Numbered from the stretch's first letter, positions 1,152-14,415 are shown. The stretch is 45,737 nucleotides of DNA from an uncultured Gemmatimonadota bacterium (GCA_903910555.1 CAIVZZ010000009.1:1-45737), one strand, 5' to 3'. Notes: generated by a model from the sequence alone, not told the origin. Translations and numbers: made by a program.

Positions 1152-1769
1152 CTACAGCAATTTCAGCTCGCCCGATTCCTCCGCCGGCAGGATCATATGG
1201 CAATTCCTGCACCTCGCCTCGTACGCTTCCGCGCCGCCGACCATCACCTGCGGTGAATCGTAGCGCGCCGGCTTTCCGTCAATCAATCGCTGATTGCGGG
1301 TGGCCGGCGCGCCGCACAATACGCAGATCGCGTGCAGCTTGTCCACCACTTCAGCCACACACATCAGCTGCGGCATCGGGCCGAACGGCTCGCCCCGAAA
1401 ATCCGTGTCCGTCCCGGCGAGAATCACGCGCCGGCCGCGATTCGCGAGCGAGTTCGCCAGCGCGACGATCCCGCTGTCCAGAAACTGCACTTCATCAATC
1501 GCAACAACCTGCGCGAGCGGATCGAGTCGCAGCCCGATCTGCTCCGTAGAATCCACCGGAATCGCCTCGATCGTGCGGCCATCGTGCGAGCCGACCGCGT
1601 ACACACCGTTGTAACGGTTGTCGAGATGCGACTTGAACACCTGCACACGCTTCTTCGCGATCAGCGATCGACGTACGCGGCGAATGAGTTCCTCGGATTT
1701 CCCGCTGAACATCACGCCGGCGATCACCTCGATCCAGCCGCCGTTCAGCTGAAACGAGCCAGACGTCAT
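1152..1769 (-). CDS. tdk: Thymidine kinase
   Basis: This is a cytosolic salvage enzyme that phosphorylates thymidine (and deoxyuridine) with ATP to give dTMP. The 205-residue length fits type II thymidine kinases. The P-loop [12 protein letters not shown] lies at about residues 19-30, the Walker B-like DEVQFLD at about 92-98, and the C-terminal lobe carries the zinc-site cysteines (VLCGAP, CRNC). The start ATG (1769-1767) overlaps the stop of the upstream DEAD-like gene as ATGA, so the two are translationally coupled. A thymidine phosphorylase gene of the same salvage pathway is in this window at 27297. Identification is secure. Confidence 0.96.
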
Positions 1770-3352
1770 TTTTCTCTCCGCGGCGGACGACCCTTATCAC
1801 CCCGATCGTCACGCTTCGGGCCGCGCGACGGCGGTCCGGAGCTGCGCGACGACGATGACGGACCACGATCCACGCGGGCGCCGCGCGTGAACGGCGGACG
1901 GTCGCCGGCTTTCGCCGGACGATCGCTCCGTTCGCCACGATCACTGCTCGGACGATCGCTGCGCGGACGATCGTTGCCGAATGACTTCTCGCCACGCGGC
2001 GGTCCGCCGAACGATCTCTCACCGCGCGGAGGGCCTCCGAAAGACCGCTCACCGCGCGGCGGGCCGCCGAACGAACGCTCGGCGGGCGGGCCACTGCGCG
2101 AGCGCTCGCCACGCGGCTTCTCACGATCGAAACTGCGCTGCGGCGGACGTCCTTCTGCGGCACCTTCCGGCTTCTTTGGCTCTGCGCGTGCGGCTTTGAG
2201 TTCCGCGCGCAGTTCCTCGCGACCGGCGAGCTTCGCCGTTGCTGCTTCTTCGGCGGCGCGCTCGTACAACCGAAGCGCTGCGCCTGCGATCTCCAAACCG
2301 TCATACTCCGCGAGCAGCGGTTCCAGTGCGACAATTTCACGCGCCGGCAATCCTGCCGCGAGCAGCGCACGCAGCGCATGGCGATTTTCTTCTTCACGCT
2401 CGCGAGCGGCACGCGCCGCGCGCGAACGCTCGTACGGCATCAACACGACACCCTGTGTGAGCTCACGGAGCGCAGCCTGCTGACGCGACGAAATCAGTGC
2501 GACGAGACGCGCCGGATGCGCGCTGAGCGCAGCCGTAAGCGCACCGGCCTCGGGCAACCCGACGAATACCACGAGCGCCGTGTACAGGCCGACATCGCCA
2601 CGCGTGATTTTCACAAGTTCGGAATCGGCCGGATAGCCGAGTGCTTCGAGCGCGGTGCGCGCCTGGCCTTCGCCACGCGCGTCGGTGACGACGATTGCGG
2701 CCGACGGCGGGTCGACATCGTCAAAGAGTTCGCCGAGCGCTGCGAGCGGTGAGCCGCTTGAAATGATGCGGACGTAGATCGTCGGCGGGGTGCCCGGCGC
2801 GATCGGAATCGGCGGGACCACCGGCACAACCACTCGGCGTGCCTTATGCATGTAACGCTCGAGGAGATTCTCGACGATCTGCGTCGGTTCCCCGGCGGTG
2901 AGAATCCGCGCGCTGCCACGCGGCAGCTCGGCCATCAAAGCGCCCAGCGGCTCACCGTGGGCCTCGTATTCGTCTGCCGCGGCAAGGAGCAGCGTGTGCA
3001 CATCGCCGAGCTTCAGCGCGGACGCTGCGAGCAGCTCGGCGAGCAAAGCCGGCGTTCCGACGACAACTTGTGGCGGCGCATCCTTGATGAGGCGCGCACC
3101 GCGTGTCGCGTTTGTGACGGGAACGACGCGGAGGCCGACCGTGGCGGGCAGGGCGCGGAGTTCGCGCGCCAGCGCAATCGCGGCAACCGAGTCTGGTACA
3201 GTGACGATGAGCTGCGGGGCCGCGAGTTCGCGGTCCGAACGTTCGAGCGCACCGGATGCGCGTTGTGCTGTCTGGGCCCAATCAGGGGCAAAAAAGTGCG
3301 CCACATGGGCGCTGCGCACGGCTCCTGCCGTTTCGCGCTCGGTCTCGGTCAC
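1766..3352 (-). CDS. Degenerate DEAD-box helicase-like protein with Arg/Gly-rich tail
   Basis: The order of motifs resembles a DEAD-box RNA helicase: [13 protein letters not shown] (motif Ib-like), AADEYEAHG where DEAD would be, [11 protein letters not shown] where SAT would be, then a second-lobe-like region ending in [18 protein letters not shown]. No Walker A (GxGKT) is visible and motif II is altered, so ATP-driven unwinding is doubtful. The C-terminus, about 150 residues, is low-complexity and basic, with repeated [10 protein letters not shown] units and many RG/RS/RD pairs. Such tails bind RNA and promote condensates in true helicases. A frame open back to a TTG at 3454 exists, but GTG 3352 has a GAGG ribosome site and leaves room for the promoters shared with the divergent aminotransferase. 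It may be an RNA-binding scaffold; the function is inferred only. Confidence 0.7.
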
Positions 3353-3475
3353 TGCAGCCTCGGTTGTCAATGGCGCGATGTGCGCCGCATGGATATCGTT
3401 CGTTCCTGCCTGAAATCTAGCGAACGTACGCGTCCCGCAAAGGATTCCACTCAAAATATCGAGCGCCAGAGCCTG

Positions 3476-6644: not shown

Positions 6645-7655
6645 ATGGCTTCAACGTACGATTTTGCGGTTGGCGGAACAAGCATCAGAGACGCACTCCG
6701 CGCTCTGAAAAATGCGTCAGTTCCGGGTGACGAATCCGGGTCCTCAATCGTCACGCCTGCCGGGCCCGCGCTCGAACTGACACCTGCCGACGCGACACCG
6801 CCGCGCCTCGAGCCGGCGGAGCCGATCGAGAGCGATCCGACTGCGGTTCGTGAAGTCGGAGAGCCGGTTGTGGCGTTTGCGGCATTTCTCGATGGAATCC
6901 AGACGAGCCGCGCGCTCTATCCCGACGGCGACAGCACGCCGCTCGTGCACGGGACGGTCGCGGCGGTCATTCGTCAGCGCGCAGACCGCGCGCTGCATAC
7001 ATGGGGCGGTGCGCCGCTGATTTCGCGAGCATTCCATGCCCCGGTTGCGCTGCTCAGCCCGCGCCTCGTCGCACGCTTTCACGCCGCGAATATTCCGATC
7101 GAAGACACGCTAGAGCCGGGCGACGCGCCCGACGCGCGCCATCCAATGGAGCTGCTCGCGCTCGCGCGAAACGCAGTACAGCGGCGGCGGGAATTGCTGG
7201 AGATCGAACTCGCCGAGCGATGGACCGATTCCGAAACGGCGCCGCTGTTTGTCGACGGCGGGATTTCCGGTGCTGGGCGCGCGTCGCAGAGCGTGCTCTC
7301 GGTCGGCGTAGTGAAGTCGCACCGTACGCTGTACACGGCTGGCGAATCGCTCGCCGTGATCACCGCGCTCAAAGCGGCAGCGCGGAGTGCGGCGTTCGAG
7401 ATCCGTCCGAAATACCGGAGCACCGTCGCGAGCTGGTATCTGCGGCTGCGCGATGCGCGCGGGCGCGATCCGTTCTTTGGTCTGGTGAGGGTGGAAATCG
7501 CGCGCGAGTCTTTCACGTCCGCGCGCGCCGATGAAGTTTCGCGCTGGGTGCTCGCGGAACGGTCGCCCGTGTCGCTCCCGGATAAGCGCTGGAGCACGAT
7601 GGCGTACGGGATTCGCGACTGCGAGGAATACCTGCGCGCCCTGACGGGCGCGTAG
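6645..7655 (+). CDS. nurA: NurA-family 5'-3' nuclease
   Basis: 336 residues. NurA is a manganese-dependent nuclease with an RNase H-like fold that partners the HerA translocase in DNA-end resection. The expected landmarks are present: an acidic strand AAFLDGIQTSR (Asp about residue 83), a central LFVDGGISG with a second conserved Asp (about 204), GVVKSH, and a C-terminal half ending in VRVEIARE. The start ATG follows a GGGAG ribosome site and overlaps the leader of the divergent lipoprotein gene. herA follows after 41 bases. The family call is strong because the nuclease motifs and the herA neighbour agree; biochemical activity is inferred from the family. Confidence 0.85.
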   Translation: MASTYDFAVGGTSIRDALRALKNASVPGDESGSSIVTPAGPALELTPADATPPRLEPAEPIESDPTAVREVGEPVVAFAAFLDGIQTSRALYPDGDSTPLVHGTVAAVIRQRADRALHTWGGAPLISRAFHAPVALLSPRLVARFHAANIPIEDTLEPGDAPDARHPMELLALARNAVQRRRELLEIELAERWTDSETAPLFVDGGISGAGRASQSVLSVGVVKSHRTLYTAGESLAVITALKAAARSAAFEIRPKYRSTVASWYLRLRDARGRDPFFGLVRVEIARESFTSARADEVSRWVLAERSPVSLPDKRWSTMAYGIRDCEEYLRALTGA

Positions 7656-7684
7656 ACGGCAGACCGCAGACGGCGGACGACAGT
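7656..7684. repeat. Short phrase repeat between nurA and herA
   Basis: Three imperfect copies of a GCAGAC/GCGGAC phrase (acGGCAGACcGCAGACgGCGGACgac) fill the 41-base gap. It has the same repeated-phrase style as the larger intergenic elements but no inverted copy, so it is not a hairpin. It does not interrupt the probable operon. Confidence 0.6.
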
Positions 7685-7696
7685 AACTTCATACCA

Positions 7697-9646
7697 ATGT
7701 CAATTCTCGGCCGTGTAGTCGCCACAGAGCGCAAACCAAATACGCCTCACGAATTCCATTTCTGGACCGCGCTCGATTCGCCGGTCGGAATTGGAACCAT
7801 CGTGCGGGTCGAGAGCGCGCAGCCGGTGAGCGGCGCGCTCCCGGTCGTGTACGGCGTTGTCGTCGAAGGATTCGGCTACACCGATGTCGAGACGCCGCTG
7901 CATGAAGTGCTCGGCTACGACGGCGAGCCCGGCGGCGATCCCGGCGCCCCGACGCGCCGCACAGAAATTCGTTTGTATTCCGCAGCGGTGCTCCGCCATG
8001 TGCCGGAAGAGCCGCTGCAGCCGGTTGCGATGGGAACCGTGCATTTGGCGAGCGACGCAGATGTCGCGATCGCGCTTCGTATGGACGCCTATCTCACGCC
8101 GGGTGCGAGCACCGGCATTCCGGTCGGACTCTACCGCTCGGGTGCGACGGCGTCGCCGGTGTATCTCGATGCAGATTTTCTGCTCGGACCTGAAGCGGCG
8201 CATCTCAACATCAGCGGCGTCTCCGGACTCGCAACCAAGACGAGCGCGGTCGAGTGGCTGCTCGCGTCGATCTTCGCACATTTTCCCGAGAAGAAAGGGC
8301 GCGTCGCGGCGGTGTGCTTCAATGTGAAAGGTCCCGATCTCTGCTTTCTCGATCAGCCGGCCGCGAAACTCGATGATGCAGATCGCGCGCTGTACGACCG
8401 GCTCGGCGTCCCCGCGGAACCGTTCAAGGACGTCGAGTACTACGCGCCCTACACGGCGAAAGGTTTTGCGCTGAACACGCTGCGATCCAACGAAGCGCTC
8501 GCATACAATGTGAAGCCGCTCACGTGGGGACTGCGTGAAGTGCTGCAGTACGCCGAGGTGCTGCTCAACAAGGATGACGTCGACGCGAAGGCGGACGCGC
8601 TGATCGACTTCATCAAAGAGCGCGTCGTCGATCAAGAGTTCACCGATCCAAAATATCTGACGAGCGCGCACCGCGTGCAGTCGTTTGGCGAACTCGAGCG
8701 CTGGTTCCGCGATCTCCTCAGCGGAATGGAGAAACAAAACGCCGAATCGTGGCGCACGCATCACGTCGCGACGATTCGAAAAGTTCGCAACCGTCTCACG
8801 AATATCTCGACGCGCTGCCGCGGTCTCGTAACGGACGACGGCACGGTGAGTGATTTGCCGTTCGGCGAATTTCGCGATCGCGCGGTGTATGTGGTTGATG
8901 TCGCGAATCTCGAAGCTGACGCGCAGGATCTCATTTTCTCGCGGATCGTCTCGCAGCTGCGCGAACATCTCGAGAAGCGCGACCTCGGCGTCGAGCATGT
9001 GATTGTGTTTGTAGACGAACTCAACAAGTACGCGCCGAGTGACGGACCCGACACCTACGTGCGCGCGATGCTGTTGGATATCGCAGAACGCGGGCGCTAT
9101 CTCGGTCTCGTGCTCTTCGCCGCGCAGCAGTTTCGCTCGCAGGTGCACCGCCGCGTCGTTGGCAACAGCGGCACGGCGCTGTTCGGGCGGATGGATCCGG
9201 ATGAACTCGCGACGCCGGGGTACGCGACCCTTTCGCCGGCGACGCGCACAAAGCTCTCCACGCTGGAGAAGGGCCAGTTGATGGTGCGCCACCCGCACTT
9301 CTCGCAGCCGGTATTCGTTCGCTTCCCACGGCCGGCGGTGCTGTCGGGGCGTGAAGGCGTTGAGCGTTTTCCGCAGGCACCGGAGCAGACGCTCGAAGAG
9401 GCGATTACGCGCTCATTGCGCGCGCTCGACAACACGGTGACGCTCGACTGGGTGAAGGAGACCGTCGCGCTCGCAGAGGAAGAGGAAGTGCTGCGAGCAC
9501 GCAACCGCACGCTCCAGGCGAAGCCGGACGACGTGAAGGCGTTTTTCCGAGCGCAGCTGAAGCGGCGCGTGCGTTCGGAACCGACGGATGCGCCGCCGCG
9601 CCAGCCGCTGAAGAAATCACCGACCGACGATCCCTACGGTTTCTGA
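7697..9646 (+). CDS. herA: HerA-family DNA translocase ATPase (DUF87)
   Basis: 649 residues. HerA proteins are hexameric FtsK-like ATPases that pump DNA towards the NurA nuclease. An N-terminal beta-barrel of about 100 residues (HAS-barrel position) precedes the ATPase core. The P-loop is the variant ISGVSGLATKTS (about residues 171-182), a form seen in bacterial DUF87 proteins in place of GSGKS. Walker B is IVFVDELNKYAP (about 434-445), and an arginine-rich sensor region follows (FAAQQFRSQVHRRVVGN). The last 100 residues form a charged helix that may contact NurA. It converges on the next gene with a 13-base tail overlap. The pairing with nurA makes the assignment firm. Confidence 0.9.
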   Translation: MSILGRVVATERKPNTPHEFHFWTALDSPVGIGTIVRVESAQPVSGALPVVYGVVVEGFGYTDVETPLHEVLGYDGEPGGDPGAPTRRTEIRLYSAAVLRHVPEEPLQPVAMGTVHLASDADVAIALRMDAYLTPGASTGIPVGLYRSGATASPVYLDADFLLGPEAAHLNISGVSGLATKTSAVEWLLASIFAHFPEKKGRVAAVCFNVKGPDLCFLDQPAAKLDDADRALYDRLGVPAEPFKDVEYYAPYTAKGFALNTLRSNEALAYNVKPLTWGLREVLQYAEVLLNKDDVDAKADALIDFIKERVVDQEFTDPKYLTSAHRVQSFGELERWFRDLLSGMEKQNAESWRTHHVATIRKVRNRLTNISTRCRGLVTDDGTVSDLPFGEFRDRAVYVVDVANLEADAQDLIFSRIVSQLREHLEKRDLGVEHVIVFVDELNKYAPSDGPDTYVRAMLLDIAERGRYLGLVLFAAQQFRSQVHRRVVGNSGTALFGRMDPDELATPGYATLSPATRTKLSTLEKGQLMVRHPHFSQPVFVRFPRPAVLSGREGVERFPQAPEQTLEEAITRSLRALDNTVTLDWVKETVALAEEEEVLRARNRTLQAKPDDVKAFFRAQLKRRVRSEPTDAPPRQPLKKSPTDDPYGF

Positions 9647-10689
9647 GCGGTTCCCCTGGGATCTGCGCGCAAAAATCCGAAGTCGAGCAGGACATGGTCT
9701 TCGATCGACGCGACACGGTCGAGTAGATCTTTGGACGGGATCATCGCGGTCACACCGTGCACTTCGGAAAAGACCAGTACGGAAGGTTCGACCTCCCGAA
9801 AGAGCGTCGTGACATCCACCGTCGCGACTTTTCGCAGCGCCGACGGAACCTGGGACAGATGAAGTTCGGCGCGCCGGATCTGATACGATTTCGCATCGAG
9901 CAGAATCGTTCCGTTCACGTCGGGTGATGAAATGCGGGCCGAGGAACGAAAGTCGATGCGAACGGCATCGCCCTCTGCGGTGTGCACCTCGCCGCCGTAA
10001 CGAAAGCAGTGGTTCTTCACGAAGTCATCGCTCGCGAAATCGCTGAGCGTCGGCAGGTGCATCGAGCGCTGCCGCGTGATGAAATCGGTGGAGACGACGC
10101 GGCCGGGATGATAGGTCCAGCCCGGTTTATCGCTCCGCAGCATCGTGGTGTCGGTGTGCATCGCCTCGAGCACACTGTCGCCGCGGAACGAATAGTTCGT
10201 GCGCTCTTCGTGGTATGCGTACGGAAAGGAATCGGCGAGGAGCCGGTACTGCTGCGCATTTTGCTCGAGCTGCTGAAAAATGATGTAGAACTCGCGGTCT
10301 TTCACCGGATCGGGCGCGCCGGGCGCGACGCACGGGGCATCGCCTCGGATCTGCACCGTGGCGAGACGAACCTGCACTTCAGAAAGCTCCACGCGCACTC
10401 GTGTTGTTGTCGAATCACGCGGAATCGTGACCGAAATCTCGGATGGCGCGAACCCCAGATGGGTGACCCGCAGGCGGTATACACCCGGCGGAAGCCCCTG
10501 AAATGCAAATCGTCCGGCATCGTCGGTGAACGTCTGCCGTCCCACGGGCTGCACGGAGACCATCGAATGCCCGAGCGGCTCCTGGTCGACTCGCGCGACG
10601 ACCACACCCGTCAGCAGCCGTCCACCGTTCCCCTGCGCGCCAACGGCCACGGGGAGCGCAATGAAGACCGCGAGCAGACGTCGGAGCAT
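9634..10689 (-). CDS. Secreted protein with N-terminal carboxypeptidase-regulatory-like domain
   Basis: 351 residues with a clear signal peptide (LLAVFIALPVAVGAQ, cleavage near residue 18). Residues about 27-105 form a carboxypeptidase-regulatory-like beta-sandwich (LLTGVVVARVDQEPLGHSMV ... FTDDAGRFAFQGLPPGVYRLRVTHLGF), the same N-terminal module used by many TonB-linked outer-membrane proteins. The rest is beta-rich with no catalytic motif seen (FYIIFQQLEQNAQQYRLL; NGTILLDAKSYQIRRAEL). It has no TonB-plug or barrel, so it is probably periplasmic or surface-bound. It is inserted on the opposite strand between herA and sbcD and is probably unrelated to DNA repair. Confidence 0.78.
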   Translation of the reverse strand: MLRRLLAVFIALPVAVGAQGNGGRLLTGVVVARVDQEPLGHSMVSVQPVGRQTFTDDAGRFAFQGLPPGVYRLRVTHLGFAPSEISVTIPRDSTTTRVRVELSEVQVRLATVQIRGDAPCVAPGAPDPVKDREFYIIFQQLEQNAQQYRLLADSFPYAYHEERTNYSFRGDSVLEAMHTDTTMLRSDKPGWTYHPGRVVSTDFITRQRSMHLPTLSDFASDDFVKNHCFRYGGEVHTAEGDAVRIDFRSSARISSPDVNGTILLDAKSYQIRRAELHLSQVPSALRKVATVDVTTLFREVEPSVLVFSEVHGVTAMIPSKDLLDRVASIEDHVLLDFGFLRADPRGTAQKP

Positions 10690-10704
10690 CCGCGAAAGCT
10701 ACCT

Positions 10705-10757
10705 CAATCCCCCTCACTGATCTTCCCCCTCACTCCTCACTGATCTCCCCCCTCGCC
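10705..10757. repeat. Direct phrase repeats related to the 943-1151 element
   Basis: Two to three tandem copies of CCCCCTCACTGATCTTC and CCCCCTCACTCCTCACTG lie between the divergent secreted-protein gene and sbcD. The phrase is the same as in the 943-1151 snap-back, in its pyrimidine-rich orientation, but without an inverted partner. It lies in the 82-base promoter region of both genes. Confidence 0.75.
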
Positions 10758-10771
10758 GCTAGATTTCCACT

Positions 10772-11968
10772 GTGCGCCTTCTTCATCTCTCCGACCTGCA
10801 CCTAGGCTTTCGGCAGTTCCAGCGCACCACGCCCACCGGTATCAACCAGCGGGAGTGGGATGTCGCGCAGTCGTTCACGCGCGCCATCGACCGCATCATC
10901 GAACTGCGTCCGGACATCCTGCTGATTGCAGGCGACGTGTTTCACACGGTGCGCCCGACGAATCCGGCGATCCTCCATGCATTCGCCCAGTTCTCGCGAC
11001 TCATGCGCGAGCTGCCCGACGCGATCGTTGTCATTGTCGCTGGAAACCACGACATGCCGAGGTCGAGCGAGACGCTGTGCATCCTGCGGCTGTTTGCACC
11101 GCTCGGAATTCATATTGCGGATAGCGAGGCCCGGCGGCTCTCTTTTCCCGAAAAGAACCTTTCAATCCTCGCGGTGCCGGACATGCCGCGCGGAAGTGTG
11201 GCGCTCGATCCAGATCCAACGGCACGCTTCAATCTCCTCGTGATGCACGCCGAGATCGAAGGCGCGGTGCCGGCACTGCCGGCGGATTCGGATCGCGCCT
11301 CGCGGCAGATTCCCGTCGCCGACATTCTCAATCCCGCGTGGGACTACGTCGCGCTCGGCCACGTGCACATCTACATGAAGATGGGGCCGAAAGCGTTTTA
11401 CTCGGGATCACTCGACTACACGAGTCCGAATGTGTGGCCCGAAGTCGAAGCCCAGCGTGCGCAGAAACTTCCAGGCAAGGGGATGATCGAGCGCGATCTG
11501 GAGACCGGGAAACAGACATTTCACCCGCTTCGTGTCGCGCGCGAGTTTCTCGACCTTCCGCCGGTCGCCGGGCGCGGATTTTCAGCCGCCGATTTGGACA
11601 AAGCAATTGCCGAGGCGGTCGCGCGCGCGCCAGGCGGGATCGAAGGGAAGGTTGTCCGTCTGGTCGTTCGCGACATCCCGCGGCATATCGTTCGCGAACT
11701 CGATTACACCGCGCTGCGCGAGTATCGCCGCGCCGCGCTGCATTTCGATGTCGACGCGCGGCGACCCGAAGTGGTGCGCAACGCCGTAAGCGGCGGACCG
11801 GGGCGGCGTCCCTCGCTCGCCGAGATGCTGCGCGAGAGTCTGCGCAATCGGGTGCTCGCGTCGGATATCGATCGCGATCAGCTCGTCGAACTCGGCGCCC
11901 ACTATCTGCGTGAAGCGGAGCAGGTCGCGAGCACGCGCGCGCTGCCGTCGGCGGTAGAGGAAGCGTGA
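10772..11968 (+). CDS. sbcD: SbcD/Mre11-family exonuclease
   Basis: 398 residues from a GTG. SbcD is the manganese-dependent nuclease subunit of the SbcCD complex, which trims double-strand ends and opens DNA hairpins. All phosphoesterase motifs are visible: LSDLHLGF (about residues 6-13), AGDVFHT (about 52), AGNHDMPR (about 91), MHAEIEG (about 155) and LGHVHIYMK (about 193). The C-terminal cap region follows. The stop overlaps the sbcC start by four bases, so translation is coupled. SbcCD activity on hairpins is of interest here because the window is rich in long inverted repeats. Confidence 0.95.
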   Translation: MRLLHLSDLHLGFRQFQRTTPTGINQREWDVAQSFTRAIDRIIELRPDILLIAGDVFHTVRPTNPAILHAFAQFSRLMRELPDAIVVIVAGNHDMPRSSETLCILRLFAPLGIHIADSEARRLSFPEKNLSILAVPDMPRGSVALDPDPTARFNLLVMHAEIEGAVPALPADSDRASRQIPVADILNPAWDYVALGHVHIYMKMGPKAFYSGSLDYTSPNVWPEVEAQRAQKLPGKGMIERDLETGKQTFHPLRVAREFLDLPPVAGRGFSAADLDKAIAEAVARAPGGIEGKVVRLVVRDIPRHIVRELDYTALREYRRAALHFDVDARRPEVVRNAVSGGPGRRPSLAEMLRESLRNRVLASDIDRDQLVELGAHYLREAEQVASTRALPSAVEEA

Positions 11969-14415
11969 GACTCAATCGTCTGCGCCTCCTGAATTTCCGG
12001 CAGCACGCCGATACCGAAATCGAATTCGATTTGGGGCTCACCGGAATTATCGGCGCGAACGGCTCGGGAAAATCGACGATTCTCGAGGCGGTTGCGTGGG
12101 CGTTGTACGGCGGCGATACGGCGCGCGGCGGAAAAGATTCCATCCGTTTCACCCGTGCGCCGGCGCGCGCGTCTGTGCGCGTCGAACTCGACTTCGAACT
12201 CGGCGGCCATCGCTACTCGGTCGTCCGCGGCCTCACGATGGCGGAGCTGTACCTCGACGGCGCGCAGCAGCCGATTGCCGATTCCGTAAAATCGGTCGGC
12301 GAACTTCTGCAGCGGCGCCTTGGGATGTCGCGCTCGGAATTCTTCAATACGTACTTCACCGGCCAGAAAGAGCTCGCGGTCATGGCGATGCTCAGCGCGA
12401 CGGAACGCGCGCAATTTCTCTCGCGCGTGCTCGGCTACGAAAAACTCCGCACCGCACAAGAACTTTCCGATGTTCGCCGCCGAGAACTGCGCAGTGAAAT
12501 CACCGGGATGCGCAGCGGCATGCCCGACGCTGCGCTCGTGACGGGGCAAATCGCTGAAGCGGATCTGCGCCTGCGTGAGACGACGGCACGGCTCGCCGGA
12601 GTCGAAGTAGACAGGACCCGCCTGCAAGGCGACGTCGACGCGCTCGCTCCGAGGTGGATCGACGCGCAGCGCCAGCGCGATGAATCACAGAAGCTCGAGG
12701 GCGATCTGCGCGTCGCACAGAGCGAGCTGCAGGGTTTCGAACGCAGCGCGGAACGGTTGACCACGGAGCTTCAGCACGTTTCCGCGGCGCGTGAAGCGCT
12801 GATGCCGCTCGCCGCAGAGCTCGCGCCATTCCACGAACTCGGCAATGAGCTCGCGCAAATGCGCGACCTCGCCGTGTTCGATGGAAAACGGCAGGCGTGG
12901 CTCGAGCAGGAGCGATCACTGGCGGCGGAGCTCGAGGCGCTGCGAGAACAGCGCGCCGACGTTCAGTCCGCGCCGGCGATGGAAGAGCAGGTCACGGCCG
13001 AGGTTGAGGCAAAGCGGCGCGCGCATGAAGAAGTGCAGGGGAAGCTCGAGCTGCGCCGGACGGAATGGGTCCGCGACCGCCAGGAGGCCGAGACGCGCCG
13101 CAACGCGCTACGCGTGCAGTACTCGGACCTGCGCGATCAACGCGAGAAACTGGTTGCACTTGGCGATCAGGGAACGTGTCCGACCTGTCAGCGTCCGCTC
13201 GGTGATCACTATCGTCAGGTGCTCGACTTGTTGGACAGTCAGCTCGAGACCGTGAGCGCCGATGGGTCGTATTTCAAATCGCGGCTCGAACAGCTTGAGG
13301 CGATGCCCGAAGATGTGGCCGCGCTCGATGAGCAGAGGCGGAAACTTCAGAGCGAAGCGGGCGCGCTCCAGGCGCGGCTCGCGCGGGTGCAGCTGAGCGT
13401 GCAGCAGCTCGAACAGGTCGGGCGCGAGCTCACGGCAAAGGAACAGCGGCACGCGACTCTCGTGAAGGAACTTGGCGAGATCCCCGGCGGTTATGATCGT
13501 GCGCGGCATACGGCGGTCGAACAGGATTTCGAGCGCCTGGCCGCGCTGAACACGCAGGCCAACCGCCTGAACACGCAGGTCGAGCGCGAGCCGGCGCTCA
13601 GGCGTGAACAGGACAGCGTGACGCGCAGCATCGCGGCCGTTACGGCAAAGCGCGAAGAACTGCTGCGGCGCCGCACTGCGCTCGCGCTGTCTGAGGAAGA
13701 GTTCGTGATGCTGCGAGATCATCACACCGACGCGGCGGCACAGCTGCATGCGGCGACTCTGGCGTCGATGAACGCGAACAGCGAGATGGCGCTGGCGCGG
13801 GCGGCGCTCGAGCGGGCGAACGCCGCGCAGAGCGATCTCGATCGCACGGAGAAGAAGCTCGAGACGATGGAAATCGAGAAGAAGCTGCACGACGAGCTGC
13901 ATCGCGCGTACAGCGATCTGCGGACCGATTTGAACTTCGCGATGCGTCCGGAGTTGTCGGAGCTGGCGAGCGCATTTCTTACCGAGCTCACGGACGCGCG
14001 CTACACGGAGCTGGAGCTCGACGACAAATATCGGATTGTCGTGCTTGAGGAAGGTGTGCCGAAGCCGGTGATCTCGGGTGGCGAAGAAGACATGGCGAAC
14101 CTCGTGCTTCGCCTGGCGATATCGCAGATGATTGCGGAGCGCGCGGGGCAGTCGTTCTCACTGCTTGTACTCGACGAGATTTTTGGATCGCTCGACGATA
14201 CGCGGCGGCACCATGTGGTCGAACTGCTGCGCGGCCTGCAGGACAGATTCGAGCAGGTCATTCTCATCACGCACATCGAGAGCGTGCGCGACGGGCTCGA
14301 TCAGGTGCTCGAAGTGAGCTACGATGAGAACAGCGGTGCGGCGATCGTGAAACGTGGCGCGGCGGGGCCGGCGGGTGCTCTTGAGCTGGCAACGGCGGGG
14401 ACGAGCGAAGCATGA
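11965..14415 (+). CDS. sbcC: SbcC/Rad50-family ATPase
   Basis: 816 residues from a GTG with an AGAGGA ribosome site. It is an SMC-like ATPase that gates and positions the SbcD nuclease. The N-terminal lobe has Walker A GANGSGKSTILEA (about residues 31-43) and the Q-loop region FTGQKELAV. Two long coiled coils flank the zinc hook CPTCQRPLG (about 404-412). The C-terminal lobe has the signature ISGGEEDMANL (about 702) and Walker B LLVLDEIFGSLDD (about 732). It is shorter than the E. coli protein and closer to archaeal Rad50 length because the coiled coils are shorter. The last codons and stop lie in a sequence repeated at 45.4 kb. Confidence 0.95.
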   Translation: MRLNRLRLLNFRQHADTEIEFDLGLTGIIGANGSGKSTILEAVAWALYGGDTARGGKDSIRFTRAPARASVRVELDFELGGHRYSVVRGLTMAELYLDGAQQPIADSVKSVGELLQRRLGMSRSEFFNTYFTGQKELAVMAMLSATERAQFLSRVLGYEKLRTAQELSDVRRRELRSEITGMRSGMPDAALVTGQIAEADLRLRETTARLAGVEVDRTRLQGDVDALAPRWIDAQRQRDESQKLEGDLRVAQSELQGFERSAERLTTELQHVSAAREALMPLAAELAPFHELGNELAQMRDLAVFDGKRQAWLEQERSLAAELEALREQRADVQSAPAMEEQVTAEVEAKRRAHEEVQGKLELRRTEWVRDRQEAETRRNALRVQYSDLRDQREKLVALGDQGTCPTCQRPLGDHYRQVLDLLDSQLETVSADGSYFKSRLEQLEAMPEDVAALDEQRRKLQSEAGALQARLARVQLSVQQLEQVGRELTAKEQRHATLVKELGEIPGGYDRARHTAVEQDFERLAALNTQANRLNTQVEREPALRREQDSVTRSIAAVTAKREELLRRRTALALSEEEFVMLRDHHTDAAAQLHAATLASMNANSEMALARAALERANAAQSDLDRTEKKLETMEIEKKLHDELHRAYSDLRTDLNFAMRPELSELASAFLTELTDARYTELELDDKYRIVVLEEGVPKPVISGGEEDMANLVLRLAISQMIAERAGQSFSLLVLDEIFGSLDDTRRHHVVELLRGLQDRFEQVILITHIESVRDGLDQVLEVSYDENSGAAIVKRGAAGPAGALELATAGTSEA

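Follow-up and report, generated by a model that had tools for sequence, protein, structure and literature searches.

A conserved nurA-herA-sbcD-sbcC gene cluster in Gemmatimonadota that probably encodes a DNA-end-processing module

We analyzed a 45,737-nucleotide stretch of DNA (hereafter, the window) from an uncultured Gemmatimonadota bacterium (GCA_903910555.1 CAIVZZ010000009.1:1-45737), which carries nurA, herA, sbcD (mre11), and sbcC (rad50) in this order. Bacterial NurA-HerA has already been characterized, and archaea provide the best-known cases of the four-gene arrangement. The window belongs to a 3.2-Mb genome of a soil-type member of the phylum, and its closest named relatives are metagenome-assembled genomes of Gemmatimonadaceae/Gemmatimonadota. 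An earlier note, made from the sequence alone, had placed the four genes here with intact landmark motifs and a single unrelated opposite-strand gene between herA and sbcD. The open reading frames, motifs, profile matches, and folds confirm the four genes, and the opposite-strand gene is where the note had put it (Table 1). The spacing between nurA and herA is 41 bp, and the start of sbcC overlaps the stop of sbcD by 4 nt.

The window NurA alone matches no Pfam, NCBIfam, PADLOC, or PHROG model, and a search of the window genome with the Pfam NurA model gives no match. The same model (PF09376) matches 5 of 32 relatives, with a best E value of 9.9e-5. A profile of the 32 syntenic NurA relatives matches Deinococcus radiodurans NurA (7f6d_H) with an E value of 5.5e-16 and Thermotoga maritima NurA TM1739 (1zup) with an E value of 1e-7. 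The AlphaFold model of the window protein (predicted local distance difference test score, 90.8; predicted template modeling score, 0.90) aligns with 1zup at a Z score of 19.2 (249 aligned residues, 3.3 Å), with 7f6d_G at a Z score of 18.8, and with archaeal NurAs at Z scores of 9 to 14. Based on the family profile and the structure model, we rule out that this open reading frame, for want of a Pfam match, is something other than nurA, and we conclude that the modeled protein has the RNase H-like NurA fold. Its catalytic positions are conserved: D83 (motif I; D53 in D. radiodurans) is kept in 31 of the 32 relatives, and K224 and R315 are invariant in all 32. The latter two correspond to D. radiodurans K201 and R309, which are required for catalysis (PMC9960219). 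NurA is the faster-diverging member of the pair, with 55 to 56% identity to congeners versus 84% for HerA.

Curated models give only weak matches to the window HerA. Compared directly with D. radiodurans HerA in the PDB, it gives an E value of 2.8e-47, and its AlphaFold model aligns with 7wrw at a Z score of 32.5 over 507 residues, with model residues 2 to 556 aligning to the D. radiodurans protein. The modeled architecture is that of a HAS-barrel plus a RecA-like translocase. The earlier note had flagged the P-loop, which contains GLATKTS, as a variant that deserved activity tests. However, G[VI]SG[LV]ATKT is present in 40/40 HerA relatives inspected and also in D. radiodurans HerA, which binds ADP-Mg via K175 and T176 of the same P-loop (PMC9960219). 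Because GxSGxATKT is invariant in relatives and present in an ADP-bound enzyme, it is the normal P-loop of this HerA branch, and we reject it as a sign of inactivity. In all 18 aligned HerAs, K181/T182, K211 (D. radiodurans K217), D214 (D220), D440/E441 (D487/E488), and R467 are invariant; R467 corresponds to D. radiodurans R513, the trans-acting arginine finger.

Two further D. radiodurans residues, the pore arginines R495 and R552, are essential for translocation (PMC9960219). The corresponding positions in the window HerA are S448 and T506, and they are non-arginine throughout the window subfamily and non-basic in most of its members. HerAs of more distant Gemmatimonadota families mostly retain arginine there. 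The window protein thus lacks the D. radiodurans-type pore residues, a comparison with one characterized enzyme and not with a definition of the family. By alignment, this is a real difference among HerAs. Nearby conserved basic residues (R456, R516, or K518, for example) could stand in for the missing arginines.

SbcD and SbcC directly match the Mre11/SbcD and Rad50/SbcC models of Pfam and NCBIfam, and their best PDB scores are to archaeal-type Mre11/Rad50 entries, above Thermotoga SbcCD. SbcD contains the motifs DLHLG, GD, GNHD, and GHVH, and the motifs of SbcC are listed in Table 1.

Table 1. Genes of the cluster and sequence landmarks (window coordinates)
Feature	Position (nt)	Strand	Description	Evidence
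nurA	6645-7655	+	RNase H-fold nuclease, 336 aa	Profile match, AlphaFold model, conserved catalytic columns
NurA motif-I Asp83	6885-6899	+		
NurA Asp204	7248-7262	+		
NurA Lys224	7308-7322	+		
NurA Asp313/Arg315	7575-7592	+		
herA	7697-9646	+	HAS-barrel plus RecA-like hexameric double-stranded DNA translocase (predicted), 649 aa	PDB match, model
HerA P-loop	8216-8245	+	GVSGLATKTS (Lys181/Thr182 = D. radiodurans K175/T176)	
HerA Walker B	9008-9031	+	FVDELNKY (D440/E441)	Invariant column
Opposite-strand gene	9634-10689	-	Signal-peptide-like protein, carboxypeptidase-regulatory-like domain	Pfam PF13620
sbcD (mre11)	10772-11968	+	Metallophosphoesterase nuclease, 398 aa	Pfam, NCBIfam, PDB, motifs
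sbcC (rad50)	11965-14415	+	SMC-like ATPase, 816 aa	Pfam, NCBIfam, PDB, motifs
SbcC Walker A	12052-12078	+		
SbcC zinc hook	13177-13188	+	CPTC	
SbcC signature	14074-14103	+		
SbcC Walker B	14161-14196	+		

The synteny of the four genes, which the earlier note had proposed as a check, is conserved across the phylum and recurs in Armatimonadota. Of 32 close Gemmatimonadota loci, 30 have sbcD-sbcC downstream of herA on the same strand, and 28 have nurA within ~5 kb upstream. In a set of named loci that partly overlaps with the genomes of these 32, nurA is upstream of herA in 62 of 69, and sbcD-sbcC is downstream in 44 of the 47 that have enough flanking sequence; of the three exceptions, two loci are of cyanobacterial lineage and one is from Chthonomonadia. 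This conservation of gene order excludes a chance arrangement. The order nurA-herA-sbcD-sbcC is also found in two Armatimonadota loci (L160 and L162), and a third (L168) has herA-sbcD-sbcC. A second order, herA-sbcD-sbcC-nurA, with genes touching or overlapping, occurs in distant Gemmatimonadota families (L054, HerA 33% identical), and L059 and L060 share this order. A functional link between the genes is favored by the occurrence of the association in two gene orders and beyond a single phylum. Thus, the archaeal-type clustering of herA, nurA, mre11, and rad50 on one strand is seen in the window and in most relatives, with one opposite-strand interruption here.

The sister loci L031 and L032 do not have the interrupting gene, nor does a near relative (L173, HerA 94% identical), whose herA and sbcD are separated by ~350 bp. 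Therefore, the gene is a lineage-specific insertion, and we reject it as a functional part of the module. In L111, L113, L114, L140, L144, and L163, the same gap holds one or two unrelated signal-peptide-like genes, some of them DUF6263-like; it is a repeated insertion site across clades, and in other clades herA and sbcD are adjacent. The cluster is surrounded by housekeeping genes (aspartate aminotransferase, GTP cyclohydrolase I, and others), and no sigma-70-like site turned up in a promoter scan. A minus-strand gene (window positions 1766 to 3454), divergent from the upstream aspartate aminotransferase gene, encodes a 562-amino-acid protein with a weak DEAD-helicase match (E value, 0.008) and is kept in many relatives.

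NurA and HerA are inherited together. Of the 150 phylum genomes surveyed, both are present in 95, HerA only in 6, NurA only in none, and neither in 49. The pair is near-universal and single copy in the window's own order (81/90 genomes). Nine genomes of the order have neither herA nor nurA but retain aspC, sbcD, and sbcC at their usual position, and the genus labels of these genomes point to several independent paired losses. Since SbcCD is retained when nurA-herA is lost, the four proteins need not form one machine. In three Gemmatimonadales loci, a protein of ~170 to 190 amino acids, weakly DUF2283-like in one case, is encoded directly upstream of herA (L048:8486-8995, L156:9504-10004, and L159:9356-9940), with an overlap of a few bases in L048. 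No trace of nurA was found in these Gemmatimonadales, even by unfiltered hmmsearch, and herA-sbcD-sbcC stays in place. This small protein may be an alternative HerA partner.

As a probe for RecB/AddAB nucleases we used PDDEXK_1 (PF12705), which finds Escherichia coli, Bacillus subtilis, Corynebacterium, and other controls. A PDDEXK_1 search of the window genome gave 0 candidates. Only two UvrD-type helicases are present in this genome, and at 773 and 717 amino acids they are too short to be AddA or RecB; RecJ and RecQ are present. Strong PDDEXK_1 matches occur in 10 of 90 genomes in the window's order (one of the ten, G019, was not confirmed as an AddAB pair) versus 55 of 60 outside it. The Fisher P value of ~1e-24 for this difference ignores kinship, and one or two events could explain much of it. 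The absence of recBCD/addAB that the earlier note had asked about therefore holds for the window genome and, by this probe, for most genomes of the order, but not for most genomes outside the order, nor for three of four sampled congeners, which have both strong matches and the cluster. AddB and AddA were confirmed as an adjacent pair in L090, a congener, and in L092, another member of the family. With AddAB-type matches in three congeners and in most genomes outside the order, the cluster is not a strict replacement for AddAB, and we reject mutual exclusion of the two systems, as many distant relatives also have strong matches plus the cluster.

Based on the identity, fold, and catalytic residues of the proteins, the gene order, the co-inheritance of NurA and HerA, and the absence of RecB/AddAB from the genome, we consider it fairly probable that the cluster encodes a bacterial NurA-HerA plus SbcDC DNA-end-processing module and that this module is the main ATP-driven end resectase of its AddAB-lacking host. 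By analogy with homologues, which also supply the HerA6-NurA2 assembly, the pumping, and the polarity of resection, the four proteins are likely to cooperate in this process. SbcDC (Mre11-Rad50) would recognize and open broken, blocked, or hairpin DNA ends. The HerA hexamer would then thread onto the end and, by ATP hydrolysis, pump duplex DNA into the NurA dimer, which would cut the 5' strand or, on occasion, both. A RecFOR-type pathway would load RecA onto the 3' tail left behind, and RecJ and RecQ may provide a parallel route. D. radiodurans NurA-HerA carries out ATP-dependent, translocation-dependent 5'-strand resection (PMC9960219), and Thermus thermophilus HerA (HepA) mutants are UV and heat sensitive (PMC5448004). 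The cooperation of the four proteins had been suggested in the earlier note; synteny, paired inheritance of NurA and HerA, and the lack of RecB/AddAB in the genome favor it, while the coexistence of AddAB with the cluster in some relatives and the retention of SbcCD without nurA-herA do not.

Several observations weigh against a role as main end resectase. Besides coexisting with AddAB, the nurA-herA pair is dispensable: it is missing from nine genomes of the order, eight of which have no strong AddAB-type match either. Since an opposite-strand gene interrupts herA and sbcD, nurA-herA and sbcDC are probably not a single transcript but two transcription units in the window genome. The pore arginines that D. 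radiodurans HerA needs are not conserved in this subfamily. Deletion of nurA-herA in D. radiodurans gave ~10-fold-higher UV and mitomycin resistance (PMC9960219). HerA-NurA of Thermococcus kodakarensis degrades DNA on both strands; the authors of that study question its part in resection and propose an antiviral role (PMC12977600, 2026).

The last two of these findings also fit a different primary function, namely, that NurA-HerA acts as an innate barrier resembling the RecBCD nuclease, pumping linear duplex DNA (phage, other foreign DNA, or broken chromosome arms) and degrading it on both strands, with SbcCD opening hairpins and recombination being secondary. HerA is the motor of the Sir2-HerA and HerA-DUF4297 defense systems, the AlphaFold models match these as well as the TdpAB pair, NurA diverges faster than HerA, and the repeated losses show that the pair is nonessential, all of which such a function would accommodate. 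However, a single copy at a housekeeping location in nearly all genomes of the order is unlike the patchy occurrence of defense islands, and the searched plasmid and viral collections contain no HerA of the window type, only relatives of 26 to 35% identity. PADLOC matches to HerA are weak and nonspecific (HerA models, E values of 0.009 and 0.072; mad8 model, E value of 4.6e-10), with none for NurA, and HerA here has neither a Sir2, DUF4297, or similar partner nor a defense-model match of the kind that marks HerA-based defense. Both the location among housekeeping genes and the lack of this HerA type in the viral and plasmid collections argue against a dedicated defense system; a dual role like that of RecBCD would be compatible with them. 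We regard DNA destruction as an unlikely candidate for the primary function. A mobile or defense element, given the conserved location and the plasmids and viral contigs searched, was judged unlikely. Four viral contigs of 38 to 47 kb (L183 to L186) carry HerA relatives ~30 to 35% identical to the window HerA. Less probable still, and in our view distinctly improbable, is that the locus holds two independent units that merely lie side by side by common ancestry, NurA-HerA being one machine and SbcCD another for cleaving hairpins and protein-blocked ends. This would agree with the retention of SbcCD where nurA-herA was lost and with the unrelated gene that separates the pairs in the window, as do 0.7 to 3 kb of other sequence in many relatives. 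Against it, other phyla and different gene orders show the association as well; it is reported in Oceanithermus (PMC5448004) and is the norm in hyperthermophilic archaea, with physical contact between Mre11 and HerA known in Sulfolobus (PMC2288612).

Returning to the end-processing module, we tentatively propose, with somewhat less than even confidence, that in Gemmatimonadales NurA-HerA-SbcDC has for the most part replaced AddAB as principal double-strand-break resectase and destroyer of linear DNA, and that its HerA, of a subfamily that also includes proteins of Armatimonadota and Cyanobacteria, holds DNA with no counterpart of the two pore arginines that D. radiodurans HerA requires. It is debated whether HerA-NurA acts as a resectase in recombination or as a defense enzyme that destroys DNA (PMC9960219 versus PMC12977600). 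An order in which NurA-HerA is near-universal, linked to Mre11-Rad50, and mostly without AddAB is a natural test of this debate, and relatives without the pair, or without NurA alone, provide controls. Recognition of the odd P-loop as the normal ADP-binding form in this HerA branch removes a false lead. No description of the cluster for Gemmatimonadota was found in the open-access papers that we searched; what is new here is the breadth of the cluster, the second gene order, the repeated paired loss, and the HerA subfamily without the two pore arginines.

The HerA defense pairs (Sir2-HerA, HerA-DUF4297, and TdpAB) resemble the window genes in combining a HerA-fold motor with a nuclease partner, which in TdpAB has a NurA-like fold, but they match the models less well than D. 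radiodurans HerA and NurA do, and the window genes differ from them in their housekeeping location and in having no Sir2 or DUF4297 partner. The archaeal herA-mre11-rad50-nurA clusters (Sulfolobus and Pyrococcus) contain the same four families, and archaeal Rad50 and Mre11 are the best PDB matches of SbcC and SbcD; in contrast, the window order is nurA-herA-sbcD-sbcC, and its NurA and HerA belong to a bacterial branch with 11 to 17% identity to the aligned archaeal structures. D. radiodurans NurA-HerA (7f6d, 7wrw, and 7wrx) shares with the window the fold, the P-loop GxSGxATKT, the Walker B motif DELNKY, the arginine finger (R513/R467), the catalytic lysine and arginine of NurA, and the adjacency of nurA and herA. 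The two HerAs are, however, only ~30% identical, R495 and R552 are replaced by S448 and T506, the window HerA has an extra C-terminal extension of ~100 amino acids, and SbcCD adjoins the pair in the window. The closest arrangement previously described in a bacterium is hepA(herA)-sbcD-sbcC of Oceanithermus profundus, reported in 2017, in which sbcD and sbcC likewise lie downstream of herA (PMC5448004). That report concerned one Deinococcota species, without analysis of distribution or AddAB, whereas the cluster described here is order-wide in Gemmatimonadota and extends to Armatimonadota.

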